Shown one piece after another: positions 18,656-39,886 of a stretch of DNA of 40,266 nucleotides. The notes below the pieces were generated by a model. The model had not been told where the DNA came from, searched no databases, and saw nothing but the letters and a program-made list of their open reading frames with translations. Both the position numbers and the translations under genes were made by a program. Position 1 is the first letter of the stretch; the number at the start of each line of letters is the position of its first letter. This stretch comes from a virus: positions 1 to 40,266 of IMG/VR virus record IMGVR_UViG_3300025626_001335; one strand, written 5' to 3'.

Positions 18656-19578
18656 TGACAAAATTTAAACCAATAGATTATGATATAATCTATTTGTCCT
18701 ATGACGAACCAAATGCAGAAAAAAACTATGCAGACTTATGTAAGAAAGTGCCGTGGGCAAAACGTGTACACGGAGTTGAAGGTAGTGATGCCGCACACAA
18801 AGCATGTGCAAGATTGAGCGAAACAGATAGGTTTATTACAGTAGACGGTGACAATAGAATCCGCGAAGATTTCTTAAATCAAGTAATTGACTTTGATGAG
18901 CATGCCGATCTTAAAAATACAGTAATAAGCTGGTGCGGCAGAAACGAAATAAACGGATTAATGTATGGTAATGGCGGACTAAAGTGTTGGCCTAAAGATT
19001 ATGTACTGAATATGCGTACACATGAAAATGCTGATCCTAACAACGCACATGCACAAGTAGACTTTTGCTGGGATGCAAAATATATACAAATGAATAGTTG
19101 TTATTCGGACGTATATAATAATGAAACCGCAGCGCAAGCATGGCGAGCTGGATTTAGAGAAGGTGTAAAACTTGCTACAGATCGCGGAGTAAGAATTGAG
19201 AAAGAAGAATTTAAAAATAATCATTGGCGTTGTTTGCATTGGCTGTATATCTGGAGTATGATTGGCGCCGACGTTGAAAACGGGCTATGGGCAATATACG
19301 GAGCAAGAGAAGGGTTGTATAAAACTATGTGTACAGACTGGGACTATGTGCAAGTAAGAGACTTTAAATATCTCAACAGTCTTTGGAATGACACTTATAG
19401 TAAAATTACTGAAGAAATGTTACCTTATGAAATTATGGGATTGGGAGCGTCTCTTGTAAATGACCTAGATATTCCGATTGCAGAAAATCCTTTAAATGCA
19501 CAACAGAGTAAGTTTTTTAAAGCAGTATATCAACATCCTTCAAGAACTGATCATCAAAGGTTTATAGAAAAACTATGA
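18655..19578 (+). CDS. Glycosyltransferase-like protein, phage DIIYLSY family
   Basis: A 307-aa protein. The start YDIIYLSYDEPNAEKNYADL, then KRVHGVEG, then FITVDGDNRI with a DXD-like D64-G-D66, suggests a nucleotide-sugar-type transferase. The gene at 31712 is a shorter paralogue sharing the opening, KRVHGIKG, the DxD element and a YGxGGxK segment. A third, broken copy lies at 26226. I associate this family with marine T4-like phages, where it is annotated as glycosyltransferase. The C-terminal ~90 residues are extra compared with the 31712 copy. It ends in an ATGA overlap with the radical SAM gene at 19575; all three copies of the family directly precede a radical SAM gene. Confidence 0.65.
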   Translation: MTKFKPIDYDIIYLSYDEPNAEKNYADLCKKVPWAKRVHGVEGSDAAHKACARLSETDRFITVDGDNRIREDFLNQVIDFDEHADLKNTVISWCGRNEINGLMYGNGGLKCWPKDYVLNMRTHENADPNNAHAQVDFCWDAKYIQMNSCYSDVYNNETAAQAWRAGFREGVKLATDRGVRIEKEEFKNNHWRCLHWLYIWSMIGADVENGLWAIYGAREGLYKTMCTDWDYVQVRDFKYLNSLWNDTYSKITEEMLPYEIMGLGASLVNDLDIPIAENPLNAQQSKFFKAVYQHPSRTDHQRFIEKL

Positions 19579-20993
19579 ATGAAAAATTAAAAGGCGATGT
19601 AGTAAAACTGTTTAAGGGAAAGTATAAAAGTCAATATTTTGAAGATGCCCAAGATTTACTTAAAGGCCTCAACAAAATTAGTCCTAGTTTTTGTCTAGCT
19701 AAATGGTATAGTGTAAGCTTACACTTGCCTACCGGAAAAACACACAGTTGCTATCATCCACCGGCCCACGGTATTCCGTTAGAAGAGCTTGCAAAAAGTC
19801 CTGATGCACTACATAATACTGAGTATAAGAAAGAACAACGAAAGAAGATGCTCGCAGGCGAACGTCCAAAAGAGTGTGAATTTTGCTGGGCATTAGAGGA
19901 TCAAGGTAATATTAGCGATCGTGCGTACCGTAGTAAAGATGTGTATGAAGATGGCCTTATAGAAGCAGCACAAGTTGAAGAAAATCCTAAACCTAGGTAT
20001 TTAGAAGTTAATTTTAATCAGGCATGTAATTTAAAATGTGCATATTGTAGTCCGCACTTGTCTACTGAATGGCATAAAGAAGTTAAAAAACACGGTGCTT
20101 ATCAATTAGTAGGCGTCGGCCACAATGATCCAGGATGGGTAGAAAGTTTAGGAATTAATAATTCTCCTGATAGCCCGTATGTGCAATCATTCTGGGAATG
20201 GTTTCCTGACGTATATCCTACACTAAAAACATTTCGTATGACTGGCGGCGAGCCTTTAATGGACAAAAATACCTTTAAAGTATTTGATTATGTAAAGAAA
20301 ACGCCAAACAACGCTTTACAATTAAGTATTACTAGTAATTGTTGTCCTCCTGGCAATCAATGGCAAAAGTTTATAGACGATTTAAAAGAAATAACGGACA
20401 AAGATGCAGTGGATCATTTTATGTTATTTTGTAGTTTAGATAGTTGGGGCGAACAAGCCGAATACATTCGAAATGGTTTAGACTTTGACGTACTATATAA
20501 AAATATAACACAATATCTTAGAGAAAGTAATAAACATAGTCTTACATTTATTATTACAGCAAATCTATTAAGTTTACCTGGCTGGACAACTTATATTAAA
20601 AATATTCTTAAACTAAGAAATGAGTTTAATACGGATAGGCAATTGGTATGGTTTGATACCCCGATGCTACATGATCCTAAATGGCTAAGTATGAAGTTAG
20701 CAACTCCTGAAATGTTACAACCTTTACTAGATAGTATAGAATTTATGAAAAGTCATCCTGAAACTGCTCTTAATAGATTTAAAGGATTTAAAGATTTTGA
20801 AGTTGACAAAGTCAAACGACTATACGAATGGGCTAGAGAACCGTTAAATACACAGGAACAAGAAGTAGCTATGAGAAATTTTAATCTTTTCTTCAAACAG
20901 CATGACATGAGACGAAACACTAATATTAATAAAGTATTTCCTGAATTACACGAATTTATAGACAACTGCGAGGCACTAAATGCAAGACATTAA
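19575..20993 (+). CDS. Radical SAM protein with N-terminal twitch-like domain (SCYHP subfamily, copy 1)
   Basis: A 472-aa protein. The radical SAM core has C151-NLK-C155-AY-C158 for the [4Fe-4S] cluster and GGEP at 224-227 for SAM binding. The N-terminal domain carries C40, C59 (SCYHP), C101 and C104 (CEFC), followed by ED-x-GN-x-SDR. This matches the layout of families described as twitch domain-containing radical SAM proteins, where the auxiliary-cluster domain precedes the core. The C-terminus has NKVFPELHEF, a motif shared by all six proteins of this architecture here. The next gene is a close paralogue. It overlaps the upstream transferase by 4 bases and the downstream gene by 14. It should catalyse a radical reaction on an unknown substrate. 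Confidence 0.88.
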   Translation: MNEKLKGDVVKLFKGKYKSQYFEDAQDLLKGLNKISPSFCLAKWYSVSLHLPTGKTHSCYHPPAHGIPLEELAKSPDALHNTEYKKEQRKKMLAGERPKECEFCWALEDQGNISDRAYRSKDVYEDGLIEAAQVEENPKPRYLEVNFNQACNLKCAYCSPHLSTEWHKEVKKHGAYQLVGVGHNDPGWVESLGINNSPDSPYVQSFWEWFPDVYPTLKTFRMTGGEPLMDKNTFKVFDYVKKTPNNALQLSITSNCCPPGNQWQKFIDDLKEITDKDAVDHFMLFCSLDSWGEQAEYIRNGLDFDVLYKNITQYLRESNKHSLTFIITANLLSLPGWTTYIKNILKLRNEFNTDRQLVWFDTPMLHDPKWLSMKLATPEMLQPLLDSIEFMKSHPETALNRFKGFKDFEVDKVKRLYEWAREPLNTQEQEVAMRNFNLFFKQHDMRRNTNINKVFPELHEFIDNCEALNARH

Positions 20994-22341
20994 ACACATT
21001 AAAAAAACAAGAGATCAACTAAATGCTGTAGGGCCTGGAATGTGTGCAATGAAATGGCTACATCAGACGTTATACTTACACACTGGCGATAATCATAGTT
21101 GTTATCATCCACGTCCTCATCATATTCCCCTTCATGAAATCGAAGCAGATCCTAGCGCATTGCATAATACTAAGTTTAAAAAAGAACAGCGTAAAACCAT
21201 GCTAGAAGGCGGTCGCCCGGACGAATGTTATTATTGTTGGAATATTGAAGATTTAGAAGGTGACCATATAAGTGATAGAATGGTTCATAGCTCAAGTGAT
21301 TTTGCTGTAAACGAAATTGAAAAATTAGCTAAACTTCCTTGGGATGCTCCTATTAACCCTCGATACTTAGAAGTAAGTTTTGGCAATGGCTGTAACTATC
21401 GTTGCGGCTATTGTTCGCCACAAGCAAGTACACTATGGATGGATGAAATTAAAAAACACGGCAATTATGATCTAACTTATAATCAATACGGTATTGACTT
21501 CTTAGAAAACGGTACATATTACGGACCTAAAGATGATAACCCGTATGTAGAAGCGTTTTGGAAGTGGTGGCCTAGTCTACGTAACGATTTGCATACATTG
21601 CGTATTACTGGCGGAGAGCCATTAATGAATCCAGGTGCTATGCAATTTTTTGATCTGCTGGAAAAGGAGCCAGCGCCGCAATTAGAAATTAGTATTAATA
21701 GTAACTTAGGAGTTACTACTGCAAAAATGGATAAAATGTACGATAGAATACAAAGTTTATTAGATCAAAAGAAGATTCGTAAATTTAGCTTGTTTACTAG
21801 TATTGAAGGGTGGGGTGCGCAGGCAGAATATATGCGTACTGGATTAAAATGTGATCACTGGGGAAGAAATTTTGAAGAAGCAATCAAGCGTGGATTCAAA
21901 GTTAATATCATGTGTACATTTAACATATTGTGTGTTGCAACATTTGATAATTTTTTAAGTAAAGTAATTGAATGGCGCAAAAAACACGGTAAACAAGCAT
22001 TAGGGTTTGATACACCATATTTAAAAGAACCACCTCATTGGATGATAAATATTTTACCTAAAGATTTCTTAATGCAACACATGGATGCAAATTTAAAATT
22101 TATTGAAGATAATAAAGAATATTTTACAGATGTTGAATACGAAAAAATGAAACGTGTACGTGATTATGCAGATCAACATCATGTGTCTGAAGAAAAAATA
22201 CATCAAGGCCGCAGAGACTTTTATAGTTTTTTTAACGAAACTGATAAAAGAACTGTTGGATTAAATATGTTAGAAGTATTTCCTATGTATGAAGAATTTT
22301 ACAATCAGTGTAAAGAGGTATATGAAAATTATGGAAAATAG
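20980..22341 (+). CDS. Radical SAM protein with N-terminal twitch-like domain (SCYHP subfamily, copy 2)
   Basis: A 453-aa close paralogue of the preceding gene. The core has C138-NYR-C142-GY-C145 and GGEP at 211-214. The N-terminal auxiliary domain has C22, C41 (SCYHP), C83 and C86 (CYYC). In both copies LHNTxxKKEQRK precedes the CxxC pair. Both have W-G-A/E-Q-A-E-Y near 275-290, a substrate-side segment unique to this pair in the window. The C-terminus has LEVFPMYEEF. The start ATG lies inside the end of the upstream gene (14-base overlap), so the two are probably translated together and may work as a pair on related substrates. Product unknown. Confidence 0.87.
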   Translation: MQDIKHIKKTRDQLNAVGPGMCAMKWLHQTLYLHTGDNHSCYHPRPHHIPLHEIEADPSALHNTKFKKEQRKTMLEGGRPDECYYCWNIEDLEGDHISDRMVHSSSDFAVNEIEKLAKLPWDAPINPRYLEVSFGNGCNYRCGYCSPQASTLWMDEIKKHGNYDLTYNQYGIDFLENGTYYGPKDDNPYVEAFWKWWPSLRNDLHTLRITGGEPLMNPGAMQFFDLLEKEPAPQLEISINSNLGVTTAKMDKMYDRIQSLLDQKKIRKFSLFTSIEGWGAQAEYMRTGLKCDHWGRNFEEAIKRGFKVNIMCTFNILCVATFDNFLSKVIEWRKKHGKQALGFDTPYLKEPPHWMINILPKDFLMQHMDANLKFIEDNKEYFTDVEYEKMKRVRDYADQHHVSEEKIHQGRRDFYSFFNETDKRTVGLNMLEVFPMYEEFYNQCKEVYENYGK

Positions 22342-23101
22342 AAGATTTTTTGCTTATGGTTGTAGCTATACTGAGTATCCGTGGCCGACTTGGGCAGATA
22401 TCTTAGGTCGTAATTATGACAAATACTATAATTACGGAAGACCTGGTTCAGGAAACATGTATATGTTTAATTCTATTATGGAAACTGATCAGTATCACAA
22501 ATTGACCAAAGACGATTTAGTAATAGTACAATGGTCATCAGCATTGCGAGAAGACAGGTACAAAGATACAAATTGGGTAACCATGGGTGGTCTTTATAAT
22601 ATATACTCTCGTAGAGAGGTTAAAAAATTCTTTGATTTTAGAGGATTTCTAATACGTGATTTAGCTGCAATAAAAGCAATAAAAGTTTTTTTAGATAGCA
22701 TTGGATGTGAATATTATTTCATAGGAATGGTTCCTCTTCTTCAAAGTATCGAATATCCTGATGCTCAGGATGTTGATATTAGTGATATTCATAGAGTTTA
22801 TGCAGACGTATTAAAAGTTATTAAACCTACATACGATGAAATTATACAAACTGCTAAAACACGACCAAAATTATTTTATACTAGAACAATTAGCGACACT
22901 CATCCTGTTCCTTCTGAGCATTATGAATATTTAGAAGCAGTGCTTCCGCACTTACTAAAAGAACCTAAGTCTATTGCGATTGATATGGATAGAAAACTAG
23001 CAGGAATTTGGAAAGGTGATCTAAATTATTCTTGGGAACCGGAAGTTTGGCCAGACAAAATACACAGCCTATTTAATGACGATAAACGGATAAAACTATG
23101 A
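22322..23101 (+). CDS. SGNH-hydrolase-like protein 1
   Basis: About 259 aa. The N-terminus RRFFAYGCSYTEYPWPTWAD fits block I of SGNH/GDSL hydrolases, with G-C-S in place of the usual G-D-S; the Ser nucleophile is kept. Near the C-terminus DTHPVPSEHYEYL matches block V (D-x-x-H). The family includes carbohydrate O-acetyl esterases and acyltransferases. The two similar genes at 27460 and 28125 keep G-D-S. The start is uncertain: ATG at 22322 or 22331, both after AAGAGG, rather than the ATG at 22289 deep inside the upstream gene. It overlaps the radical SAM gene before it by about 20 bases and the one after it by 4. It may remove or add acyl groups on a glycan. Confidence 0.6.
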   Translation: MKIMENRRFFAYGCSYTEYPWPTWADILGRNYDKYYNYGRPGSGNMYMFNSIMETDQYHKLTKDDLVIVQWSSALREDRYKDTNWVTMGGLYNIYSRREVKKFFDFRGFLIRDLAAIKAIKVFLDSIGCEYYFIGMVPLLQSIEYPDAQDVDISDIHRVYADVLKVIKPTYDEIIQTAKTRPKLFYTRTISDTHPVPSEHYEYLEAVLPHLLKEPKSIAIDMDRKLAGIWKGDLNYSWEPEVWPDKIHSLFNDDKRIKL

Positions 23102-24312
23102 TAAATGAAAAAAATAAACAAAGCTGGTGTGTAAATGCCGAACATGCGATGAGTGGTGATAATACCGGACACACAAAAATTTGTTGTATGACAAGATTTA
23201 TGGATAGAAAAATATCTCTAGGTGAACAAACGATTAAAGAAAATTTTAATCAGCCCGATTTTGTTGAAGTAAGAGAAGCACTTGCCAAAGGTATACGACA
23301 CGAAGTGTGTAGACTTTGTTGGACAGAAGAAGATTCTGGTAGACAGAGTAAGAGGTTACGAGATAATGAAAAATATTTAGGAATGGTCAAAGACGGCGGC
23401 ACACCATTCAAAGGACTAGCTAAGTTAGAACTTAATTTAGGCAATCAATGTAATCTTAAATGTAGAACATGCGGACCTCATTCCAGTAGTACCTGGTTAA
23501 AAGAAAAGTTCGACATGCAAGAAAAAAAATATTACAAAAATTTTAAAGATTATGCTGCATCAATGCGTAAATATAGTAAGCAATATGAGCCTACTAGTCC
23601 ATTTTGGGATGATTTTGATAATAATTTAGAAAACATTAATCAGATTGATTTTTACGGTGGCGAACCATTTATGAGTGAAAAAATGTGGGGAACATTAAAA
23701 AAAGCAGTTGAGTTTGATTATGCAAAAAACATAGAGCTACATTATGCTACAAATTGCACTCATTGGCCAGACGATGTTGAAATTTTTAGAGAGTTTAGAC
23801 ATTTAAATCTAAACTTTAGTATTGACGGCGTTGGTCCTGGATTTAATTACATGAGATATCCAGGAGAATGGAGCGAAGCAGAAGTAACTTTAAAGAAGGC
23901 GAGAGAATTTGCAAAAACTCATAAAAACATACACATGAGTTGGATTGTTACTTTAAGTTCAATTAATATTCATAGTTTACCTGAAATTATTGCAGAGTAT
24001 GAAGAAAACTATAGTGATTTTGGAATATACTTAAATTTAGTTCATGATCCTGATCATTATAATATGAAGATAATACCATCTAGTATTAGAGAAACAATAA
24101 TTAACAGATTAGAATTAATCCCAAAAGATGCAAACTGTTGGCAGAACTATTTACCTGGCATAATCCAATTTTTAAAAGACGGCAATCCTGATATTGCTTT
24201 ATGGAATAAAGCAATGAACGAAATTAAATGGCAAGATGCTTATAGAAACCAATCCTTCCAAGCGGTATATCCAGAGTATTATCAATTAATTCAGGATACA
24301 AGTTATGAATAA
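23098..24312 (+). CDS. Radical SAM protein with N-terminal twitch-like domain
   Basis: A 404-aa protein. The core has C118-NLK-C122-RT-C125 and GGEP at 187-190. The N-terminal domain has C11, C29-C30 (ICCMTR), C71 and C74 (CRLCW), then EEDSGRQSKR. This C...CC...CxxC...E-x-x-G-x-x-S-x-R order is shared with the 26324, 35927 and 38765 proteins. FSIDGVG lies at ~240, a strand of the core barrel. The C-terminus has QAVYPEYYQLI, the FPE-type ending. ATGA overlap with the SGNH-like gene upstream and 8-base overlap with the next radical SAM gene indicate one operon. Substrate unknown. Confidence 0.87.
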   Translation: MINEKNKQSWCVNAEHAMSGDNTGHTKICCMTRFMDRKISLGEQTIKENFNQPDFVEVREALAKGIRHEVCRLCWTEEDSGRQSKRLRDNEKYLGMVKDGGTPFKGLAKLELNLGNQCNLKCRTCGPHSSSTWLKEKFDMQEKKYYKNFKDYAASMRKYSKQYEPTSPFWDDFDNNLENINQIDFYGGEPFMSEKMWGTLKKAVEFDYAKNIELHYATNCTHWPDDVEIFREFRHLNLNFSIDGVGPGFNYMRYPGEWSEAEVTLKKAREFAKTHKNIHMSWIVTLSSINIHSLPEIIAEYEENYSDFGIYLNLVHDPDHYNMKIIPSSIRETIINRLELIPKDANCWQNYLPGIIQFLKDGNPDIALWNKAMNEIKWQDAYRNQSFQAVYPEYYQLIQDTSYE

Positions 24313-25564
24313 ATTTTTTACTTGGGAAAAGCTGTCTCAAATGCATATCGAACTAACAAATTCGTGCAATGCTGCTTGTCCAATGTGTACTCGATTTTTT
24401 GGCAACAGTCCCTTAATACGACCTGATCTTGAATTAGGACAGATTACTTTAGATAAATTTAAAAAATACTTTCCTAAAGAAGTTCTAGACAAAATGGAAG
24501 TAATATTGTTTTGTGGAGTACATGGAGACCCGTGTGTTGCAAAAGACGTTTACGAAATATGTGAATATATTGCTGAAACAAATCCTGAAACCTGTGTAAG
24601 AATGAATACCAATGGCGGAATGCGTAATCCAGAATTTTGGAGTAAAATGGGAAAACTTTTTGCAAGTAAAGAAAAGGGTCCTTGGTCTTGGAGAATTACT
24701 TTTAGTATAGATGGACTTGAAGATACCAATCACTTGTATAGACGAAACGTTGTATGGGATAAATTATATGCAAATGTAAAGGCATATTTAGAAACAGGTG
24801 CGCAAGCTGAATGGGATTTTTTAATATTCAAACATAACGAACATCAACTACAAGAAGCAAAAGAGTTGTCAGCAGAATTAGGTTTTTATGCATTTGTGCC
24901 TAAGAAAGCACTTGGAGTAGACGACAACGGTTCGTTACGTAGAATGCCGGCTGTGTCAAGAGAAGGAGAGCTAGAATATTACATTGATGCTCCAGTAGAC
25001 CCAAACAATAGAAATATTGAAAATCCAATTGGTGAAGAACAAACAGGTTATTGGAAGTTCAATCCTGAAGAATATAAGCGTTTAAGAAAAAATAGACAGA
25101 CTCCGCACAACTATCAAGATATGATAGATAATGCATATGCACAGCTTGCTAAAGAAGATAACACACAATTAGATACTGCTGATATTAATTGTAAAGCAAG
25201 GACTCGAGAATCAGGTATTGAAATCTTTGTTGACAATTTTGGAAGAGTTATGCCTTGTTGTTACGCAGGTACTCATTTAGTTGGAACACACGGTGACGGT
25301 CAAAGTTTACAGTTGCATCATGAAACACAAAAATACGGATGGGAAAAATTTGATCTTGAATTGCATTCTTTAAAAGACATAATGTTACAAGGTCATTTAG
25401 ATAGGTTATACACTGACTCGTGGTCAAAACCTAGTTGCGGCGATGGTAAAATGGCATACTGTGCAAATATCTGCGGCACATATAGTAGAGTAGATAGAAT
25501 TTGGACTCACGAAGATATGACAGACAAGTCTCGTAATTGGAGAAAACCTTCTACCCATGAATAG
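24305..25564 (+). CDS. Radical SAM/SPASM protein (GDP variant), copy 1
   Basis: A 419-aa protein. C21-NAA-C25-PM-C28 begins almost at the N-terminus, so there is no N-terminal auxiliary domain. The usual GGEP is replaced by H-G-D-P within CGVHGDPC, a known type of variation in SPASM proteins. The C-terminal SPASM-like domain shows C296, C318-C319 (MPCCYAG), C378, C386 and C390, enough for one or two auxiliary clusters. FSIDGLEDTNHLYRR is shared with the paralogue at 33352, as is the H-N-x-H-Q segment. The last residues MTDKSRNWRK recur in the debris at 26284. SPASM enzymes often modify peptides or proteins, but the family is broad. It overlaps its upstream neighbour by 8 bases. Confidence 0.87.
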   Translation: MNKFFTWEKLSQMHIELTNSCNAACPMCTRFFGNSPLIRPDLELGQITLDKFKKYFPKEVLDKMEVILFCGVHGDPCVAKDVYEICEYIAETNPETCVRMNTNGGMRNPEFWSKMGKLFASKEKGPWSWRITFSIDGLEDTNHLYRRNVVWDKLYANVKAYLETGAQAEWDFLIFKHNEHQLQEAKELSAELGFYAFVPKKALGVDDNGSLRRMPAVSREGELEYYIDAPVDPNNRNIENPIGEEQTGYWKFNPEEYKRLRKNRQTPHNYQDMIDNAYAQLAKEDNTQLDTADINCKARTRESGIEIFVDNFGRVMPCCYAGTHLVGTHGDGQSLQLHHETQKYGWEKFDLELHSLKDIMLQGHLDRLYTDSWSKPSCGDGKMAYCANICGTYSRVDRIWTHEDMTDKSRNWRKPSTHE

Positions 25565-25607
25565 AGATATCTGGCCTAGTTTATATAAAGGATTAATAAA
25601 ATGTTAA
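25557..25607 (+). pseudogene. Possible remnant of a radical SAM gene C-terminus
   Basis: A 16-codon frame crossing the end of the 24305 gene and the start of the methyltransferase reads NRDIWPSLYKGL before a stop. The FPE-type C-termini of the N-twitch radical SAM proteins, especially SDIWPAEWELL at the end of the 26324 gene, look similar. GATATcTGGCCT here differs from GATATtTGGCCT there at one base. The match is short, so this is only a suggestion of leftover coding sequence in the gap. Confidence 0.3.
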
Positions 25608-26233: not shown

Positions 26234-26331
26234 TATTGTATTTATAAGTTACAAAGATGTTTTGGATTGTAGACGGCGATGCTATGACAGACAAGTCGCG
26301 CAATTGGAGGAAAACTAAACAAAATGAGTAA
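26226..26331 (+). pseudogene. Mosaic gene debris: transferase start, transferase DxD segment, radical SAM C-terminus
   Basis: Three pieces are joined here. First, 26226-26252 reads MYDIVFISY, identical in protein to the start of the 31712 transferase, with only synonymous base changes. Second, in another frame, 26257-26283 reads MFWIVDGDA, matching MCWIVDADA of that gene; relative to it about 122 bases are missing, which breaks the frame. Third, 26284-26313 reads MTDKSRNWRK, identical to residues 405-414 of the 24305 SPASM protein, again with only synonymous differences. Stops end both frames, at 26318 and 26331. No functional protein is expected. Confidence 0.8.
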
Positions 26332-31673: not shown

Positions 31674-31676
31674 ATC

Positions 31677-31705: not shown

Positions 31706-31711
31706 TATAAA

Positions 31712-32386: not shown

Positions 32387-33359
32387 GGACATAACAAAGT
32401 TCGGACAAAAAACTTTGTTGGATACCGGCTTGTTTACAGTGTCTTGGATTCTTGCGAGGTTCTGTAATTATAATTGTTCATACTGCTGGCCCTATGCTAG
32501 AAGCAGCACACCTGACCATCAAGATTTAGAAGTTTACACTCGCACAATAGACGAAATAAAACGTCAAGCTCGTGCAAACGGATTTACTGACTTTCATTTT
32601 AGCTTCTCAGGCGGCGAACCTACTGCATATAAATACTTTGGGAAGGTTATAGACCATTATTGCAGTGATGCAACACCCGAGTACCAAAGCATACACATGA
32701 CTACAAACCTAAGTCCTGGTAGCAAATGGTGGAACAAATGGATAGGCTCTACTAGCACTTTGCAACGTAGAAGTATTACAGCAAGCTATCATTCAGAGTT
32801 TGCTAATGAACAAGAGTTTGGAGACAAATGTCTCCAGTTAATGAAAGCAGGTGTATATGTTACAATCAATCAAGTTATGGTTCCAGAAATGTTTGACGAA
32901 CTATACGAACGTCTTGAACGATTTGCCTCCAGAGGTATTAATGTCACTCTCAAACCCCAATCCGATCCTACTGCCTCCTACGTTGTACACGGATACACAG
33001 ACGAACAAGTCCATAAAATGCAAACAGGATTTCCACAGCGAATCCCATACGAATTTAAAAAAATAGTACCTTTATTGCAAGTAGAATTGCAAGACAGTGT
33101 TGGTAACAAGTATTACATAGATCAGGCAGAACGATTTAATGCGTTTGGATTCAATAAGTTCAAAGGGTGGAATTGTAATGCAGGGTATCAAGGATGCGTT
33201 ATAAGAGAGAACGAAGTTAAACGCAGCTATAGTTGCCATGATGAACCCTTAGGCACGTTAGACGGCGGATTTGAGCTCTTTAAGACACCACGTAAGTGCA
33301 TTACTCCAAGTTGTGTTAGTAGTGCTGATAGCAAAATACCAAAGGTTAAACATGTATAA
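32358..33359 (+). CDS. Radical SAM protein with C-terminal GWxC cysteine domain, copy 1
   Basis: A 333-aa protein. I take the ATG at 32358 over the upstream TTG; both lie within the preceding gene. SWILARFCNYNCSYCWPYAR gives C36, C40 and C43, and GGEP is at 85-88. The C-terminal domain opens at GWNC, then SYSC, then CITPSC, the same layout as the 34924 and 37877 proteins and unlike classical SPASM spacing. This suggests one auxiliary cluster. Part of the coding sequence near 32930-33000 is richer in C (CTC, CCC, TCC, GCC codons) than its neighbours, hinting at a different recent source. It overlaps the next gene by 8 bases. Confidence 0.85.
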   Translation: MNNFQNIPFEDITKFGQKTLLDTGLFTVSWILARFCNYNCSYCWPYARSSTPDHQDLEVYTRTIDEIKRQARANGFTDFHFSFSGGEPTAYKYFGKVIDHYCSDATPEYQSIHMTTNLSPGSKWWNKWIGSTSTLQRRSITASYHSEFANEQEFGDKCLQLMKAGVYVTINQVMVPEMFDELYERLERFASRGINVTLKPQSDPTASYVVHGYTDEQVHKMQTGFPQRIPYEFKKIVPLLQVELQDSVGNKYYIDQAERFNAFGFNKFKGWNCNAGYQGCVIRENEVKRSYSCHDEPLGTLDGGFELFKTPRKCITPSCVSSADSKIPKVKHV

Positions 33360-34338
33360 TATTGAAAATATTAAAAGCATTCATTTAGAAGTTACTAGTA
33401 AATGTCAAGCTAAATGTCCTATGTGTCCTAGAAGAATGCAAGGCGGCATATTGATGCCTTGGATAGATTTAACAGAAATTACAATTGATCAATTTAAGAA
33501 ATGGTTTCCAATTAATTTTATAAAACAGCTAAACAAATTAAATATGTGCGGAAATCTTGGAGATCCAATAATTGCAAAAGATACTGTGCTAATTTACAAA
33601 TATTTAAGAGAAAATAATGCTACAATGGATTTGCAAATGCATACTAACGGCAGTGCAAGAGATAATCAGTTTTGGAAAAATTTAGCAGCATTAAATGTTA
33701 AGGTAGTTTTTGGGATAGACGGTTTAGAAGATACACATAGCAAATATAGAATTGGAACTGATTTTAACAAGATTATCGAAAATGCAAAAACTTTTATAAA
33801 TGCTGGCGGAGAAGCACGTTGGGACATGCTAGTATTTCAACATAATCAACATCAAACAGATGAATGTGAAAAATTGGCAAACGATTTAGGCTTTGTATTC
33901 TTCCAAAAGAAAAACTCAAGTAGATTTAAAGATGGAAAGTATAATGTTCTAAACGAAAGTGGTAAAACTATAGACATTCTTTATCCAACTAAAAAAAGTA
34001 AAAGCTTTGTAGACAAAATTAAACAGTCAAAATATGATATACAACCTGTTATTAACTGCAAGGCAAAACAACATAATGAAATATATGTAGCAGCAAACGG
34101 AAATGTTAGTCCGTGTTGTTGGTTAGATGCAGAATGGCTCCCTCCGGTTAGTGATGCAAGAATAGACTATATGGATAAAATTGAAATTTATCCTAACCTA
34201 AATAAAAACACATTAGATGAAATATTTAATTCTACATATTTTACAGATGTAGAAAATACATGGAGTTGTGATCCTTTAAAAGAGTGTGCAAAACAATGCG
34301 GAAAGTTTGATAAGTTAGGAGCGCAATTTGAGAGTTGA
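33352..34338 (+). CDS. Radical SAM/SPASM protein (GDP variant), copy 2
   Basis: A 328-aa protein. The ATG at 33352 with AAAGG upstream is chosen over a frame extension into the previous gene. C18-QAK-C22-PM-C25 begins the core. The GGEP position reads L-G-D-P in MCGNLGDPI, parallel to CGVHGDP in the 24305 protein. Both also share GIDGLEDTHSKYR/FSIDGLEDTNHLYRR and a W-D-x-L/M-x-F segment. The C-terminal SPASM-like domain has INCKAK, SPCCWLDAEW, then WSCDPLKECAKQCG. It is some 90 residues shorter than copy 1, mainly in the stretch before the SPASM domain. Ends overlapping the methyltransferase-like gene by 11 bases. Confidence 0.86.
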   Translation: MYNIENIKSIHLEVTSKCQAKCPMCPRRMQGGILMPWIDLTEITIDQFKKWFPINFIKQLNKLNMCGNLGDPIIAKDTVLIYKYLRENNATMDLQMHTNGSARDNQFWKNLAALNVKVVFGIDGLEDTHSKYRIGTDFNKIIENAKTFINAGGEARWDMLVFQHNQHQTDECEKLANDLGFVFFQKKNSSRFKDGKYNVLNESGKTIDILYPTKKSKSFVDKIKQSKYDIQPVINCKAKQHNEIYVAANGNVSPCCWLDAEWLPPVSDARIDYMDKIEIYPNLNKNTLDEIFNSTYFTDVENTWSCDPLKECAKQCGKFDKLGAQFES

Positions 34339-34927
34339 TATACAAGACGTACTATTTTGGATGGATGCTATTCGCAACAGCGATAACAAATATCGTACAC
34401 TTGAAAGTTTTTGGAAAGGACAAGTCAACAGCAAAGTATGGCTTGCTGATGCATTACGTATAAACTATGCAGATGACGATGCTCGCATTGTAATCTACGG
34501 TGGATGGAATGGTGTTCTTGCAAGTATACTGTTTAACAGCAGTCTTAGTATAGAACATATCACAAGCGTAGACATTGACGAAGACTGTCAAGAAACTGCA
34601 TACACAGTTAATAAAAACTATGAAATAGCAGGAAGGTTTGATGCAGTTACCGCAGACATGTGCGAATACACAGAACCTGCTGACATTGTAATTAACACAA
34701 GTTGCGAACACATTACACAAGAACAATATGAGCAGTGGTTAGACATCCAGCCAGACGATGCATTATTTGTTGTACAAAGCAATAACTACTTTGAGTTAGA
34801 CGAACATATTAGATGTTCTGTAGATATCAACGATTTTACTCATATGAGTAAAATTAAACCTTATTTAAGAGATACATTATCGTTGCCAAAATACGATAGA
34901 TATATGATTATAGGTAGAAAAAAGTGA
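34328..34927 (+). CDS. Class I methyltransferase-like protein
   Basis: A 199-aa protein. The TTG at 34328 is supported by AGGAG (34317-34321) six bases upstream; the first ATG (34361) has none. ARIVIYGGWNGVLASILF (52-69) is a SAM-binding-type loop with G-G-W-N-G in place of the usual G-x-G-x-G. ITSVDIDEDCQ near 78-88 gives the acidic residue after strand 2, and FDAVTADMCEY near 104-114 fits strand 3. DIVINTSCEHI near 120 is the strand 4 region. Similar proteins occur in T4-like cyanophages. It overlaps both neighbours (11 and 4 bases). Substrate unknown; an altered glycine loop leaves some doubt on activity. Confidence 0.62.
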   Translation: MRVDIQDVLFWMDAIRNSDNKYRTLESFWKGQVNSKVWLADALRINYADDDARIVIYGGWNGVLASILFNSSLSIEHITSVDIDEDCQETAYTVNKNYEIAGRFDAVTADMCEYTEPADIVINTSCEHITQEQYEQWLDIQPDDALFVVQSNNYFELDEHIRCSVDINDFTHMSKIKPYLRDTLSLPKYDRYMIIGRKK

Positions 34928-35934
34928 AGCCAATTTCAATAGTAAACGAAATAACTCCTGAAGAGATTTATGTTGAAATTATTATGGGATCAACTTGCAA
35001 TTTTAATTGCAGTTATTGTTTTCCTGGATGTAATGATGGCAAATATCGATGGCCTATCGGAAAACAGCAAGACATTTTTTATAAAAATTTAATTTATATA
35101 TTTGATGTGTTTAAAGAATATGGTAAGAAAAATTTCATCATAAATGTAACTGGTGGAGAGCCAACGTTATGGCCGGGGCTAGGAAACTTTGCAAAATTCT
35201 TTAAAGAGACATACGGCGCAAGAGTTATAATGTCGTCAAACGGCTCTAGAACATTGCGTTGGTGGGAAAAAAATGCAAAGTATTTTAGCGGTATAAACAT
35301 AAGTGTACACAACGAAGAAGTAGATGTAGATCACACCATACAGGTTTTAGATTGGATATATCTTAATACAGATACGTCAGTACGTGCATCAGTCTTAATG
35401 GATATTAAAAATTGGGACAAATGCAAGAATATAGTAGATAAGTTGCAGGCTCACGACGTGCCATGGCTATTAAACGCTGGAGCAGTGATGGTGGGAGATG
35501 ATATGATTGATTATTCTAAAGAACAATTAGAATATTTACAGCCAAGGAGTAAAAAAATCCCCCCAAAAGAATACATAGAAAAAATGAAAGAAAAAAACAA
35601 TATAGTTATTAGAGATAATAAGATTTTCACAGTATATGAGGACGGATCTAGAGAACAATTTTCCTCCGTCAAATGGTATGCAAATAATTGGCATCGCCTT
35701 GAGGGCTGGGAGTGTAATTTAGGAGTAGAAAGATTTTATATATGGATGGATGGAGATATTAAAGGAGGCTGCGGCGCAACTAATCTTTTTAATCGAACTG
35801 TGCCATTAAACATTTATGATGAATCTTTACCTAATAAGTTTTTTCTTAAAGACATTCTGCCGTTAATATGCAAATATAAAGCGTGTGTTTGTTCTTCAGA
35901 ACTACAAGTAAATAAAAGAAAAGTAAATGACTGA
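34924..35934 (+). CDS. Radical SAM protein with C-terminal GWxC cysteine domain, copy 2
   Basis: A 336-aa protein starting at GTG, which overlaps the upstream stop as GTGA. The core has C25-NFN-C29-SY-C32 and TGGEPTLWPG near 78. SSNGSRTLRWWEKN near 105 and NISVHNEE near 125 follow the usual strand order. The C-terminal domain shows GWEC, then GGCG, then CKYKACVC, the same order as the 32358 and 37877 proteins. Its Cys positions imply an auxiliary Fe-S cluster. The end overlaps the next radical SAM gene by 8 bases. Substrate unknown. Confidence 0.85.
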   Translation: MKPISIVNEITPEEIYVEIIMGSTCNFNCSYCFPGCNDGKYRWPIGKQQDIFYKNLIYIFDVFKEYGKKNFIINVTGGEPTLWPGLGNFAKFFKETYGARVIMSSNGSRTLRWWEKNAKYFSGINISVHNEEVDVDHTIQVLDWIYLNTDTSVRASVLMDIKNWDKCKNIVDKLQAHDVPWLLNAGAVMVGDDMIDYSKEQLEYLQPRSKKIPPKEYIEKMKEKNNIVIRDNKIFTVYEDGSREQFSSVKWYANNWHRLEGWECNLGVERFYIWMDGDIKGGCGATNLFNRTVPLNIYDESLPNKFFLKDILPLICKYKACVCSSELQVNKRKVND

Positions 35935-37237
35935 TACATTTTGCCCCTTACCGTGGATACATTTAGCGACTCGTCCTAACGGTGATGTTCGTGTATGTTG
36001 CACAGCTAATGCTAGTGGCGCAGGCGTAACTGATGATAAAGAGGCTGGACTTGTAAAGCAAGATGGTATTAACATGAACTTGCGTGAGCATTCTGTAGAA
36101 GAAGTATGGAATAGCGAACATATGCGCAACACTAGATTGCAAATGTTAAACAATATAGTTCCGTCGAGTTGTCGTAAATGTTTTGAAGAAGAATCAAAAG
36201 GCATTAAAAGTAAACGCTATTGGGAAACTGAAGTTTGGAAGGAGCGTTTAGACATTGATGGTATTGTAGCCCAAACACAAGCATCCGGCAGTTTGCCAGT
36301 AAACATTCCTTACTTTGATTTACGACTAGGTAACATGTGTAATTTAAAATGTGTTATGTGTAGCCCGCACGATTCGAGTAGTTGGATTAAAGATTGGAAA
36401 CTTCAGTATCCGCAATATACAAACGAACAACTAAAGCAAGATCAAAACTGGAATCCTAACTTTGACTATACTTGGTATAAGAAAGGTACGTTCATTGAAA
36501 GCATGAAAAGTCAAGCACAATATATTAAAGAATTATACTTTGCAGGCGGCGAACCGTTAATGATTCCAGAACACTTTGCAATACTAGAGTTTATGGTTAC
36601 TGAAGGATTTGCTAAAGATTGCATTATTAGATATAATTCAAATGGTACAATAATTGATCAACGTACATTAGACTTGTGGAGCAAGTTTAAACAGGTTAAA
36701 TTTAACTTTAGTTTAGATGCTGTTAATGAGCGCAATGATTATATAAGATATCCTAGTAAGTTTAAAGAAATTGAAACAAACTTGCAAATGTTAGATAATA
36801 CTCCTGATAACATTGTAGTTAATATTGCATGTGCAGTACAAGCATTAAATGTCTACCATATTGTAGACTTAGCAGAATGGAAACTTGCACAGAATTTTAA
36901 AAAAATTAATCAAGCACCTTATGGAGCCGGACTAATAGGATTGCATCTAGTCTACTTGCCTAGTCATATGAATGTTAGGGTATTACCCGAAAAAATCAAG
37001 CAACAGGTGTCAGAAAAGATAATTAATTTTGCAACTAGTTCTGATCGTAGCATTGAATTTAATACAAATTCCTACGGTAAGGAGCGATGGTTAGGACTTG
37101 TCGATTATATGAATGCTGAAGATTGGAGTCATAAACTTCCAGCATTGCAGCAATACTTAAAAATAAATGATAAAACACGAAAACAAGACTTTATTAAAAT
37201 ATTCCCAGAATTGGAGTTAGTATATGGAACAACATGA
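35927..37237 (+). CDS. Radical SAM protein with N-terminal twitch-like domain
   Basis: A 436-aa protein and the most canonical of its architecture. The N-terminal domain has C6 (FCPLPWIHLATRPNGD), C24-C25 (VCCTAN), C82 and C85 (CRKC), then EEESKGIKSKR. The core has C138-NLK-C142-VM-C145 and GGEP at 207-210. NFSLDAVNERNDYIRYPSKF lies near 265-285, the substrate-facing strand and loop. The C-terminus has IKIFPELELVYG, the FPE-type ending. It overlaps the oxygenase-like gene by 14 bases. NCBI has a family for such N-terminal twitch proteins (from memory); their function is not established. Confidence 0.9.
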   Translation: MTDTFCPLPWIHLATRPNGDVRVCCTANASGAGVTDDKEAGLVKQDGINMNLREHSVEEVWNSEHMRNTRLQMLNNIVPSSCRKCFEEESKGIKSKRYWETEVWKERLDIDGIVAQTQASGSLPVNIPYFDLRLGNMCNLKCVMCSPHDSSSWIKDWKLQYPQYTNEQLKQDQNWNPNFDYTWYKKGTFIESMKSQAQYIKELYFAGGEPLMIPEHFAILEFMVTEGFAKDCIIRYNSNGTIIDQRTLDLWSKFKQVKFNFSLDAVNERNDYIRYPSKFKEIETNLQMLDNTPDNIVVNIACAVQALNVYHIVDLAEWKLAQNFKKINQAPYGAGLIGLHLVYLPSHMNVRVLPEKIKQQVSEKIINFATSSDRSIEFNTNSYGKERWLGLVDYMNAEDWSHKLPALQQYLKINDKTRKQDFIKIFPELELVYGTT

Positions 37238-37880
37238 AATAGAGCGAGCATTACGTTGGCAAAGTTTAGTTAACTTAGGTAACCAAGTTAAACTAAAATG
37301 GAAAATTGACCACTATGCCGTTGAGCAACAATTAGAGCAGTTTAATGATAATTGGTGCCCGTATAATGCTAAGAAGGATACACACAATAATCGTTGGGGA
37401 TTGCCTGTAACAAGCCATACTGGTGATGTTATGGACAATTATCATTTGAACAGTTTTGGTCACATGCAAAAATATCATGATGTAGAAATGAAGGAAGAAA
37501 ACTTTAATACACCTACAGAAGTTTATCATGCTATTCCTGAACTTAAAAGACTAGTAGATGTGTTTGCTCCTGATCTTGGCAGAGTACATTTACTACGTGT
37601 AGACCAAGGAGGCTTTTTCCCTCCACATAGAGATTTTCACGGAACTAGCCCAGAGTACTTTAGATTACTAACTGTATTTGGTCGTTGTAGTCCAGAAAAC
37701 TATGTGCAGATGGTTGACGGTAAACCGTTGTATCCTGAAGCAGGATACGTGTATTTTACAAACTTTCAATTGGATCACAGTGTGTTTAGTTTCAGTGACA
37801 ACTTATATAGTCTTATTTTAACAGTAAAATTAAATGAACGTACACAAAATTTAGTACTAAACAATACGATGGCAGAATGA
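37224..37880 (+). CDS. Putative Fe(II)/2-oxoglutarate-type oxygenase (aspartyl hydroxylase-like)
   Basis: A 218-aa protein. GGFFPPHRDFHG gives H135-x-D137 and the distal His may be H185 in FQLDHSVFSFSDNLY, the HxD...H triad of double-stranded beta-helix dioxygenases. Spacing and the surrounding strands (VHLLRVDQG, FRLLTVFGR, AGYVYFTN) resemble aspartyl/asparaginyl beta-hydroxylase and related phage oxygenases. The Arg that usually follows the distal His by about 10 residues and binds 2-oxoglutarate is not obvious; R147 or R154 may substitute, or the enzyme may be atypical. It sits between two radical SAM genes with overlaps of 14 and 4 bases. Hydroxylation of a protein or sugar residue is a guess. 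Confidence 0.6.
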   Translation: MEQHEIERALRWQSLVNLGNQVKLKWKIDHYAVEQQLEQFNDNWCPYNAKKDTHNNRWGLPVTSHTGDVMDNYHLNSFGHMQKYHDVEMKEENFNTPTEVYHAIPELKRLVDVFAPDLGRVHLLRVDQGGFFPPHRDFHGTSPEYFRLLTVFGRCSPENYVQMVDGKPLYPEAGYVYFTNFQLDHSVFSFSDNLYSLILTVKLNERTQNLVLNNTMAE

Positions 37881-38785
37881 AACTAACATACGAAGATAGC
37901 ACAAAAGAAAATTGGTTCCTTGTTAGTTGGGTATTATCAAACAAGTGTAATTATAGATGTTCATATTGTCCTAGTCATTTACATAGCGGAACTACAGGTC
38001 AACCTAAGTGGGACGTAGTGTCTACATTTATTAAAAACTTTAAAGTGCCAAACAAACAAATTTGTTTTAGAGTTAGCGGCGGCGAGCCAACACATTGGAA
38101 ATATTTTTCTAAAATGGCTGCTCTTATTAAAGAACAAGGTCATATTTTTAGTTTTATGTCTAACGGAAGTCAACCTATAGAATATTATAAAAATATTTCT
38201 AAATACACTGACGGACTAATTTTAAGTTATCATCCAGAAAAGTCGTCTGTTGATCACTTTATTAAAATTGCTAACAACGTAACTTGTCCTATTGCTGTAA
38301 ATCTGATGCTTATGCCTGAGAATTTTGATGATATAGTAGAGATTGCTAAGTTATTGTATAACGGGACTAATAATATGCTAATTTGTCCTAAGGTTATTTT
38401 AGACAAAAGTGCTGCTGATGGATACATTACAAATGAAGTAAGTTATTATACTCCGGAACAACAAGAGTTAATCAATAATTGGCCGTATTCGAGAAAGATT
38501 GATGATAGCAAGCTACATAGAGGTAACATGTTGTTAAACGGTAAAAAGATAACAGCTAACGACCTAATTCTTAACGGACTTAACGCACACGACGGGTGGA
38601 AATGCTGGGCAGGAATAGACGGAGTAAATATTGATATGTGGGGAAAACTATACAGAGCCGACTGTCAATACGGCGGTCTGATTGGTGACTTAACAAGCTA
38701 TACATTGCCTTCTGAACCTATCATTTGCGGCAAAGATATATGCGGATGTTTAAGCGATATCTATTTAAGAAAAGAGACTACTTAA
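37877..38785 (+). CDS. Radical SAM protein with C-terminal GWxC cysteine domain, copy 3
   Basis: A 302-aa protein. ATGA overlap with the oxygenase-like gene. SWVLSNKCNYRCSYCPSHLH gives C24, C28 and C31, and the SAM motif is SGGEPTHWKYF near 73. LSYHPEKSSVDHFIKIA near 115-130 resembles ASYHSEF of the 32358 protein, and LMLMPENFDD resembles QVMVPEMFDE there, so these two are the closest pair. The C-terminal domain has GWKCWAG, RADCQYG, then CGKDICGC. Its last 21 bases overlap the convergent minus-strand gene, and there is no terminator between them. Confidence 0.85.
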   Translation: MKLTYEDSTKENWFLVSWVLSNKCNYRCSYCPSHLHSGTTGQPKWDVVSTFIKNFKVPNKQICFRVSGGEPTHWKYFSKMAALIKEQGHIFSFMSNGSQPIEYYKNISKYTDGLILSYHPEKSSVDHFIKIANNVTCPIAVNLMLMPENFDDIVEIAKLLYNGTNNMLICPKVILDKSAADGYITNEVSYYTPEQQELINNWPYSRKIDDSKLHRGNMLLNGKKITANDLILNGLNAHDGWKCWAGIDGVNIDMWGKLYRADCQYGGLIGDLTSYTLPSEPIICGKDICGCLSDIYLRKETT

Positions 38786-39886
38786 TTCAGGACATACTTG
38801 ATGTATACTAGTGTTGCGTAACTTATCTAACTCTTGCGTATATAAAATAAAATTCTTTAATTCTTTAGTATTTTCTTTATGTGATATAGGAGTGTCTTTT
38901 AAAATGCTTTCCGGCAATATAGCTGGATTTAAATAGGCTGGTGTAGTAACAACGTTATTTAAAAATAATTCGTAGTTCAGCTGTTTGATTCCTTCGTACC
39001 AGCTTTCAATGTTAGCTAAATGACAAATATTGTATGTCATTATAGTGCCTGCAAAGATTACTCTACTAAATTTATTAAAGTTTTGTAAATTATTTTCAAA
39101 CTGTTCAAACGAGAAATTGTCACCACCTCTAATATATTCGTAAAGCTTACCTGTTCCTTCTAAACTAATATGCCATTTAGTTTCTTTAAACTGTAATGCT
39201 AGTTCGTCGAACTCGTGATCGATAACAGTGCCGTTGGTACTAATGTCGAGTGTTATGTTTTTTGCTAAGTTTAAGTTAATTAACTTTTCTAAAATCTTTT
39301 TATTTGCAGGCTCTAAATATGGTTCTCCGCCTTTGATATTTAAGTATTGAAGGTTTTTAAATAATTCCGGAAATTCAAATAATTTATCAACTACAGTTAA
39401 CGATATATTTTGATATCCGAAGTTATTGTGTTCAACAGGCCTACTAAGACAACTATGTTTACTTAATGCAATATCATCCTTGATCCATGCTGTCGAACTA
39501 ACTCCGCTACACATTCTACATTTAAGATTACAGACATTGCTCATATTAATTTCAAGGAATCTTATATCGTATGATGATTGATGATAGTTACACTTGCTAT
39601 TATGCACTAACGGCGTAAGAACATTATTAAAAAACTTGCGTCTGCTATGTCCGATCGTTTCTTCTTTTCTAGTACATTGAACACATTGTACCGGTAACAC
39701 ATCTTGTTGTATAGAAGTTTTTAACTGACTAACTGCATCAGATTTAAGTATTTCAGGCAACGGGGTCTCTAATATATTTCCGTATTTGCCTACGTAAACA
39801 CAGTCAGGAGCAATGTCGCCATTAAATCTTACCTGTAAAGAATGCCACGGTGCGAGGCACTTTATAGAGCTGCAATTGTGTTGCAT
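38765..39886 (-). CDS. Radical SAM protein with N-terminal twitch-like domain, minus strand
   Basis: A 373-aa protein, the only complete minus-strand gene in the window. The N-terminal domain has C10 (KCLAPWHSLQVRFNGD), C29 (PDCVYVG; a single Cys where relatives have CC), C68 and C71 (CVQC), then KEETIGHSRR. The core has C119-NLK-C123-RM-C126 and GGEP in LNIKGGEPYLEP near 195. ISLEGTGKLYEYIRGG is the F-S-x-D equivalent. The C-terminus has HQVCPELSSLF, with Cys in place of Phe in the FPE motif. Its start lies inside the end of the truncated gene upstream (25-base overlap), so the two form a leftward unit. Confidence 0.86.
   Translation of the reverse strand: MQHNCSSIKCLAPWHSLQVRFNGDIAPDCVYVGKYGNILETPLPEILKSDAVSQLKTSIQQDVLPVQCVQCTRKEETIGHSRRKFFNNVLTPLVHNSKCNYHQSSYDIRFLEINMSNVCNLKCRMCSGVSSTAWIKDDIALSKHSCLSRPVEHNNFGYQNISLTVVDKLFEFPELFKNLQYLNIKGGEPYLEPANKKILEKLINLNLAKNITLDISTNGTVIDHEFDELALQFKETKWHISLEGTGKLYEYIRGGDNFSFEQFENNLQNFNKFSRVIFAGTIMTYNICHLANIESWYEGIKQLNYELFLNNVVTTPAYLNPAILPESILKDTPISHKENTKELKNFILYTQELDKLRNTSIHQVCPELSSLFS

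Follow-up and report, generated by a model that had tools for sequence, protein, structure and literature searches.

Phages that carry many genes for radical S-adenosylmethionine (SAM) enzymes are already published. The Campylobacter phages CP220 and CPt10 encode 11 and 12 radical SAM proteins and have an interchangeable block of five, and it was asked in 2010 why some phages spend so many genes and so much iron on radical chemistry (extracts of Timms et al., 2010; PMC2853527); no answer to this puzzle was found in the literature searched. A 183 kb T4-like ocean genome, TARA_ERS488813_N000010, has 12 radical SAM genes together with an iron–sulphur (Fe-S) carrier gene (extracts of Nishimura et al., 2017; PMC5332604), the host-recognition region of pelagimyophages contains radical SAM cassettes (extracts of Zaragoza-Solas et al., 2020; PMC7029224), and viral samples from the Tasman Sea show more radical SAM genes (extracts of PMC7150976). 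Here we describe a viral contig, IMGVR_UViG_3300025626_001335 (40,266 bp; this whole stretch is termed the window), where 12 radical SAM genes lie at 19575-39886, behind tail fibre genes. They form two modules, A and B, which recur in order, whole or partial, in other viral contigs, and the modules and the fibres are exchanged independently. The literature searched, which was part of the published record and did not include preprints, did not show the two modules, their exchange next to conserved fibres or a counterpart of module B in Bdellovibrionia.

The closest described systems resemble the locus in some respects. The phages CP220, CPt10 and CP21 (Firehammervirus) are T4-related and have about a dozen radical SAM genes. 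Searches with the Pfam model PF04055 gave 11 matches in each of them (three of those in CP21 are broken by a stop), six in Vibrio phage K566, four in Phosso, two in Mosig, one in CBB and none in 2.275.O and PA5oct. However, CP220 has six of its radical SAM genes within 70-85 kb and five elsewhere; gene g25 of the window matches CP21 at only 23%, and searches with g29 and g14 found no Campylobacter phage. The TARA genome is T4-like and has 12 radical SAM genes, a likeness by count alone as far as the extracts of its description go. Pelagimyophages (HTVC008M, Mosig EXVC030M, MAVG3/MAVG16) share with the locus fibres, glycosyltransferases, radical SAM cassettes, Asp_Arg_Hydrox proteins and a hypervariable region (extracts of PMC7029224 and the annotation of Mosig), but Mosig has only the two PF04055 matches, and g1 has no match to Mosig VrlC. 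It should be pointed out that the pelagimyophage host recognition cluster is defined between VrlC and the neck gene gp14, and that the window ends before any neck gene. A near-mode DNA comparison with named phages found no similarity.

The earlier note on this DNA had regarded such a density of radical SAM genes as far beyond one or two auxiliary genes. The count is unusual, but it has precedents in CP220/CPt10 and in the ocean genome. Larger sets also exist: four IMG/VR records, G034, G035, G036 and G038 (the records of loci L042, L043, L044 and L046), have 17, 18, 17 and 15 PF04055 matches, and two of them, the 172 kb record G035 and G036, share gene order with module B loci.

The radical SAM genes

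The genes from g13 onwards are as follows.

g13, 19575-20993, plus strand: radical SAM protein with N-terminal twitch (N-twitch), module A; NF033640 324 bits
g14, 20980-22341, plus strand: N-twitch radical SAM protein, module A; NF033640 302 bits; 64 viral loci
g15, 22289-23101, plus strand: SGNH-like by motif only, no Pfam match; the listed start is probably too early
g16, 23098-24312, plus strand: N-twitch radical SAM protein, module A; NF033640 286 bits
g17, 24305-25564, plus strand: radical SAM protein, module A, with C-terminal SPASM-type cysteines; GVHGDP replaces GGEP
g18, 25601-26233, plus strand: methyltransferase; PF13578 31.1 bits (cut-off 26.3)
g19, 26324-27463, plus strand: N-twitch radical SAM protein, module A; NF033640 220 bits
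g20, 27442-28128, plus strand: SGNH-like by motif only, no Pfam match
g21, 28125-28862, plus strand: GDSL/SGNH-like; PF13472 22.1 bits, under the cut-off of 32.9
g22, 28840-29649, plus strand: glycosyltransferase family 9 (GT9)-like; PF01075 23.4 bits (cut-off 22)
g23, 29676-31673, plus strand: B12-binding radical SAM protein, module A; PF02310 33.6 bits (cut-off 32.1), PF04055 62.1 bits
g24, 31712-32386, plus strand: g12-like protein, where module B begins; weak Pfam matches only, below cut-off
g25, 32346-33359, plus strand: GWxC radical SAM protein, module B; ATG probably near 32358
g26, 33271-34338, plus strand: radical SAM protein with SPASM-type cysteines and GNLGDP, module B; PF04055 38.1 bits; ATG probably near 33352
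g27, 34328-34927, plus strand: methyltransferase-like, module B; weak PF01564 match below cut-off
g28, 34924-35934, plus strand: GWxC radical SAM protein, optional in module B; PF04055 42.9 bits
g29, 35927-37237, plus strand: N-twitch radical SAM protein, module B; NF033640 408 bits; 38 viral loci
g30, 37224-37880, plus strand: Asp/Asn beta-hydroxylase-like oxygenase, module B; no Pfam match
g31, 37877-38785, plus strand: GWxC radical SAM protein, module B; PF04055 44.6 bits
g32, 38765-39886, minus strand: N-twitch radical SAM protein, convergent unit; NF033640 237 bits; PF13186 (SPASM) over cut-off at residues 10-72
g33, 39862-40266, minus strand: cut by the window end; 380 residues in L018; propeller-like by eye; no Pfam match

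All 12 proteins have the CxxxCxxC motif and a separate PF04055 match, with E values from 1.4e-19 to 2.9e-7 (all under 1e-6). The Pfam cut-off of 29.5 bits is passed by ten; g17 (27.5 bits) and g13 (25.3 bits) are just below, and g13 exceeds the cut-off of the N-twitch model NF033640 (N_Twi_rSAM; 170 bits) by 154 bits. Six proteins pass NF033640 (g13, g14, g16, g19, g29 and g32), and the other six are below its cut-off or do not match; g17 has sub-cut-off matches to NF033640 (2e-14) and to heme b synthase (2e-10). SPASM-type C-terminal cysteines with a GDP motif are found in g17 and g26, a call made from these residues and not from a scan with the Pfam SPASM model. A four-cysteine GWxC domain ends g25, g28 and g31, and only g23 joins PF02310 to the radical SAM domain, with specific B12 subfamilies all below cut-off. 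Profiles and cysteine motifs thus agree with the 12 genes and four architectures (six N-twitch, two SPASM-type, three GWxC, one B12-binding) that had been listed from the bare sequence.

From g12 to g32 neighbouring gene ends overlap or sit at most 90 bp apart, as had also been noticed. Among the interleaved enzymes then proposed, the methyltransferase g18 (over cut-off) holds and the oxygenase g30 is supported, the latter by 33% identity over 93% to a protein of Pelagibacter phage Mosig annotated Asp_Arg_Hydrox (E 7e-28), but the SGNH assignments and the methyltransferase call for g27 are weak.

Two modules that recur in order

Module A comprises g13-g14-g15-g16-g17-g19-g23, and module B g24-g25-g26/g27-g29-g30-g31. 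A scan seeded with g29 yielded 38 viral loci, with the usual order g24-g25-g26/g27-(g28)-g29-g30-g31; in many of them the convergent g32 and g33 come next. All seven module B core genes are present at 40% identity or above in 16 of the 38, and many of the others are short contigs; g27 homologues occur in 31. Loci L037-L044 and L046 (g29 44-47%), as well as L045, are without several core genes at the 40% threshold.

A scan seeded with g14 gave 64 viral loci, many of them short. A gene labelled g14 is present in 63, and g13 lies no more than two genes upstream of it in 61; in the other two nothing precedes g14. These 63 loci have g12 upstream in 47 cases and, downstream, g16 in 38, g17 in 38 and both in 33, but only ten have g19 and seven g23. 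The longest agreement is seen in L185, L186 and L213/L218 (one record), which have g13-g14-(g15)-g16-g17-g19 as well as g23, g21 and g22, at 33-90%; the g15 homologues of L185 and L186 are at the corresponding place. L214, omitted from the first module A comparison, is included in the recount. Searches with g16 and g23 gave one and five viral relatives, respectively, so that the evidence for module A past g14 comes mainly from the loci seeded with g14.

Divergence was also compared between gene pairs. The Mantel r within modules is 0.95 for g16-g17, 0.77 for g29-g26, 0.70 for g14-g16, 0.62 for g25-g29, 0.52 for g25-g26 and 0.49 for g13-g14. It is 0.82 for g9-g12 inside the tail part, and 0.54 (g9-g14) and 0.46 (g12-g14) across the g12 boundary. 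Each value is higher than all of 2,000 permutations, which ignore shared ancestry. These correlations appear to support co-inheritance of some gene pairs, and not a clean wall between modules and tail part.

The earlier note would have given way if most of the proteins lacked the radical SAM fold or if relatives carried the genes scattered; instead the modules recur in order in tens of contigs, which supports its proposal that the radical SAM genes form a co-conserved cluster for biosynthesis or modification. Its further suggestion of one multi-step pathway fares less well. The cluster is co-conserved, but it consists of two modules, shows replacement junctions both within a module and from one module to the next, and does not move as one block, so the 12 enzymes need not share one product.

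Exchange of cassettes beside conserved fibres

The part of the window in front of the modules is made up as follows.

g1-g7, 147-15203, plus strand: virion structural protein and tail fibres, with paralogous g6/g7; conserved neighbours of the island
g8-g11, 15272-18655, plus strand: small protein g8, glycosyltransferase-like paralogues g9/g10 (DxD-like MDTD) and uncharacterised g11
g12, 18655-19578, plus strand: protein with a predicted GT-A fold, the last gene inherited with the fibres

Tail or virion matches in PHROGs were obtained for g1, g3, g4 and g5, and g3 contains PF07484 (Phage Tail Collar). No family match was found for g6 and g7, nor any informative one in profile searches for g8-g11; the MDTD motif suggests that g9 and g10 are glycosyltransferase-like.

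Cassettes and fibres are exchanged independently. As a sample independent of radical SAM selection, loci were seeded with the tail fibre gene g3, and the best 80 of 314 were used. The genes g1-g12, as far as each locus holds them, are colinear in all 80. Of the 23 loci that extend past g12, 19 have a radical SAM-like open reading frame directly behind it; one of the 19, L221, is cut before the motif. Whole records were searched for 40 of the 80 loci, mostly the longer ones, and 22 have radical SAM genes. Seventeen of the 18 records without them end at, near or before g12, and G215 has about 4 kb past g10.

Replacement is seen in pairwise comparison among 62 contigs, g14-seeded ones included, that have g10, g12 and a radical SAM gene within three genes. 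Where g10 is 75-85% alike (29 pairs, not independent of one another), the first radical SAM gene is less than 60% alike in 16 pairs, and g12 has a median of 87%. The 28 pairs with g10 more than 85% alike show no such replacement.

Individual alignments locate the junctions. With L225, L284 and L244 the window aligns at 74-81% as far as g12 extends (19575-19578); past this point the alignment is reduced to pieces at 63-70%, plus one 99-base piece at 79%. In L217 and L216 the similarity runs at 87-99% through module A and g24-g25 and stops where g25 ends (33349-33354); beyond this only g27 aligns, plus one 149-base piece in L217. In both, g20 is unaligned, and g18 is moved in L216 and absent from L217. 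The converse is found in L213, which aligns from g12 through most of module A at 74-82%, and in the tail part by only two pieces at 64-71%.

Two candidates from this comparison were given up. L221 was dropped as an example of the g12 junction, having only 361 bp beyond g12, and a shortened g3, hinted at by match spans of 3 kb, was rejected because the complete g3 is 684-691 residues in 75 loci. Separately, about 1 kb inside g1 (window 3800-4820) has no DNA match in L221, L266, L284 and L244, and both flanks align.

A counterpart of module B in Bdellovibrionia

Bacterial genomes were scanned with a g29 alignment. Among the best 80 of 146 loci, the best matches are mostly contigs of Bdellovibrionia metagenome-assembled genomes (MAGs), at 44-49%; others are a planctomycete-labelled contig (46%) and phage-like contigs in other MAGs (40-44%). 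Close to g29 in Bdellovibrionia are g12/g24-, g25- and g26-like genes, the g24 homologues at 37-46%, and a g27-like gene at 28-38%. These loci differ from the viral module in that genes like g30 and g31 are seldom present or match weakly, tail genes were not seen (L082, which is phage-like, excluded) and a glycosyltransferase family 2 (GT2) gene is often a neighbour. In four loci inspected by eye the flanks look like ordinary chromosomal genes.

Of 143 Bdellovibrionia-class genomes, 27 have a g25 homologue of any strength, and in 15 it is 50-58% identical. Twelve of 28 chromosomal module B loci have GT2-type genes within 5 kb; with each of six near-identical pairs counted once, the figure is 10 of 22. 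The g25 tree places most viruses apart from most Bdellovibrionia with few label changes, three for each of the two groups. Of its 32 internal branches 15 are left open, and the tree gives no direction of transfer.

Six phage-like contigs in bacterial MAGs (L073, L077, L078, L079, L080 and L082) have the same type of island by eye, and were left out of the chromosome counts. A GT2 fused to a radical SAM domain, suggested by CxxxCxxC in L061, L063 and L066, was dropped for the two proteins scanned, those of L061 and L063, in which Pfam gives nothing but glycosyltransferase domains. Tandem repeats of about 26 residues (WLPNE/WLPGK-type) occur near module B genes of Bdellovibrionales at L063:10823-13368, L066:12135-14060 and L071:4723-5562. 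They follow a GT2-like part in L063 and L066 (Pfam-confirmed for L066) and stand alone in L071.

The island beyond the window end

A record without end repeats, such as this one, is often a fragment, and the window is probably part of a larger genome. L018 (IMGVR_UViG_3300009496_002242, record G010) equals window positions 33138-40266 at 99.99% over 7,129 bp, and the island continues in L018/L047 with the complete g33, a kelch-like protein and an APH/RIO-like kinase, both matches being under the Pfam cut-offs. A thirteenth radical SAM gene follows downstream (G010:9764-10279, PF04055 over cut-off). The extension also encodes five Asp_Arg_Hydrox-like proteins after g33 (four over the Pfam cut-off, one under), a weakly phosphatase-like protein and a tryptophan-halogenase family protein (E 3e-89). 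The halogenase gene is at L047:4503-5717, and a 222-residue AMP-binding piece, part of the domain only, at L047:6235-6903.

A second tail fibre gene, with an Mtd_N domain, bounds the far side of the island in L047. The 156 kb sister genome G220 has 13 radical SAM genes within 62.7-84.5 kb, and on the same far side has relatives of the Mtd_N fibre, of a hydroxylase and of a 495-residue protein.

Structure and predicted chemistry

An AlphaFold model of g25 (mean predicted local distance difference test, pLDDT, 85.5) aligns over residues 20-330 to radical SAM structures. The best match is BlsE (Z 16.3, root mean square deviation 3.7 over 266 residues), followed by SkfB (Z 15.6) and then by viperin-like enzymes, MoaA and anSME. 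The four C-terminal cysteines are invariant in the g25 family. Because of this alignment and these cysteines, the GWxC domain probably represents a twitch/SPASM domain of variant form rather than a new architecture, and it may bind an auxiliary cluster.

The proteins g12 and g24 belong to one family (29% identical over 233 residues), whose alignment shows D66 invariant and D64 and N67 nearly so; this and the g25-family alignment hold 35 and 33 hand-picked sequences, respectively. No PDB sequence match and no Pfam match were found for g12. Its AlphaFold model (pLDDT 91.5) gives weak Foldseek matches (E 1e-4, TM about 0.3), and a second structure search (VIA) returned 50 rows, almost all glycosyltransferases or nucleotidyltransferases, at Z 8.4-10.5 and mostly over about 140 residues. 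The best of these is the glycosyltransferase 6p61 (Z 10.5). The model thus suggests a GT-A-type fold, with glycosyltransferase activity as a prediction. The PBCV-1 structure 2p6w, from a system in which a viral glycosyltransferase of the same fold class serves capsid glycosylation, is among Foldseek's best for g12, but the likeness is weak (TM 0.30) and shows no function. We know of no radical SAM enzymes in the PBCV-1 pathway.

The fold of g12, the GT9-like g22, a carbamoyltransferase in the sister island L171 and the GT2 neighbours in bacteria make a glycan or glycoconjugate the most economical product class to propose. No membrane helices were predicted, by hydropathy only, in the 48 proteins of window and extension except in the mis-started g26, unlike in a control, the rfb cluster of E. 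coli O16, whose polymerase and flippase have six and nine. The enzymes are therefore probably soluble, and their acceptor would probably be cytoplasmic, such as a virion protein. By the same hydropathy criterion, the 48 proteins include no flippase, polymerase or transporter of the kind that marks O-antigen or capsule synthesis clusters.

Possible role of the island

We tentatively favour, as a plausible reading that falls short of being probable, that soluble enzymes assemble and vary a glycoconjugate where phage and host meet, probably carried on the adsorption fibres. An exchangeable tailoring island would sit in the host-recognition region of a T4-superfamily phage. The fibre-linked glycosyltransferase-like proteins g9, g10 and g12 would start or attach the glycan, and cassettes A and B, together with the methyltransferases, SGNH-like and GT9-like proteins and hydroxylases, would elaborate and vary it by C-H chemistry. 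The twitch/SPASM enzymes may perform dehydrogenation, epimerisation or cross-linking, and the B12 enzyme g23 probably C-methylation. Modification would take place in the cytoplasm late in infection, the product then being displayed on the adsorption fibres, and a cassette swap would put a new decoration on an unchanged fibre. As for timing, the T4 late promoter sequence TATAAATA occurs at three sites in the window against 9.9 expected from shuffles (99 of 100 shuffles have at least three), so that the late expression is something we infer. In favour of this reading are the colinear order from the fibres to g12, the radical SAM-like gene that mostly follows g12, the strong co-variation of g9 with g12 as against g14, the replacement junctions, the glycan-type enzymes of the island and its kin, the lack of predicted membrane proteins and the second fibre gene on the far side, also seen in G220.

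A more ambitious version is doubtful: that this is a cassette system for varying the viral grip, in which the fibre remains linked to the glycosyltransferases that initiate the glycan and the radical-enzyme cassettes are swapped to give combinatorial, exotic decoration, with a related three-radical-SAM pathway in predatory Bdellovibrionia.

A number of observations weigh against the fibre-borne glycoconjugate. The independent exchange itself speaks against enzymes that recognise one fibre sequence: the fibres g3-g5 of L213 are 34-41% identical to those of the window and its six radical SAM genes 73-90%, and module A occurs in L185 and L186, loci without g3-g5 homologues. Module A with unlike fibres fits a host-surface or free product equally well. 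In four of the 23 g3-selected loci (L257, L258, L264 and L295) another gene follows g12, and the Mantel contrast is unclean, g13-g14 and g25-g26 being no higher than pairs across the g12 boundary. Host lipid-linked glycans could likewise serve soluble enzymes as substrates, and five of nine sister loci (L218, L185, L015, L019 and L046) hold one protein with one or two predicted helices; the remaining four have none. Searches with the chosen families recognised no gene for nucleotide-sugar synthesis. The GT2 density of 0.065 per kb near bacterial module B, against 0.027 farther away, is biased, as it was the near region that supplied the queries. SPASM/twitch enzymes, Asp/Asn hydroxylases and halogenases act more often on peptides or small molecules, and the hydroxylases and halogenase of the island may point to protein or small-molecule chemistry too.

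It is possible, although on the unlikely side, that the island instead remodels the host surface polysaccharide during infection, for superinfection exclusion or to keep progeny off debris. Such a role has been proposed for glycosyltransferases of the pelagimyophage host recognition cluster (extracts of PMC7029224), and it would suit the glycan-type decoration enzymes, a cassette turnover that resembles that of surface antigens, and the presence of module A with unlike fibres. It sits less well with the 48 proteins, among which no flippase, polymerase, lipid-carrier transferase or other membrane protein is predicted (bar the mis-started g26), or with island genes that run codirectional behind the tail operon.

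We consider it unlikely that the modules make a modified peptide (a ribosomally synthesised and post-translationally modified peptide, RiPP, or similar) or another diffusible small natural product. Such pathways typically employ radical SAM enzymes of the twitch/SPASM and B12 kinds, peptide maturases are among the structural neighbours of g25, the best NCBIfam match of g23 is the RiPP enzyme ApyD (far under cut-off), and module B is a small unit in bacterial chromosomes. However, with gaps of at most 90 bp from g12 to g32 there is little room for a separate, non-overlapping precursor gene nearby, and no membrane exporter is predicted.

The chances are smaller still that separate auxiliary enzymes, each with a role of its own, have accreted in a hypervariable region. 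The sharp junctions, the gene shuffling seen with g18 in L216 and the modest correlation of some neighbours such as g13-g14 are as expected from accretion, but both modules recur in order and g16-g17 and g29-g26 are strongly correlated. Hypermodification of phage DNA, which in phages can use glycosyl- and carbamoyltransferases, is very improbable for an island that adjoins the tail operon; a TET/JBP search found none in 17 records but was uninformative, its controls giving no match either, and the thymidylate-synthase-type enzymes in two of the 17 were not told apart from ordinary ones.

If the fibre-borne glycoconjugate is real, receptor contact would be varied in phages through an exchange of chemistry as well as of protein sequence. 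Either way, a gene count is turned into testable units, two modules of which one has a core of about five genes that is also found in bacterial chromosomes, and the modules offer uncharacterised radical SAM enzymes whose partner genes are known.

Phage affiliation and related observations

Among the genes of the window none was recognised as a core replication or capsid gene. The sister genome G220 belongs to the T4 superfamily, and the window presumably does too. The G220 capsid protein is nearest to those of Phosso, Vibrio phage 2.275.O and PA5oct. A pelagimyophage origin of G220 is not supported, as there are few protein matches to the part of the Mosig genome compared (about 90 kb).

Viral Fe-S assembly genes have been tied to radical SAM enzymes (extracts of PMC5332604). 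In line with this, an IscU-like Fe-S scaffold is encoded in two of 32 records, at G220:18080-18460 (E 3e-56) and G012:57569-57961 (E 3e-41); an A-type Fe-S carrier was found in none of the 32, many of which are fragments. A radical SAM cluster distantly alike (22-33%) is present in Vibrio phage K566 (L317, 155349-180239), where some of the genes are annotated as hypothetical only.

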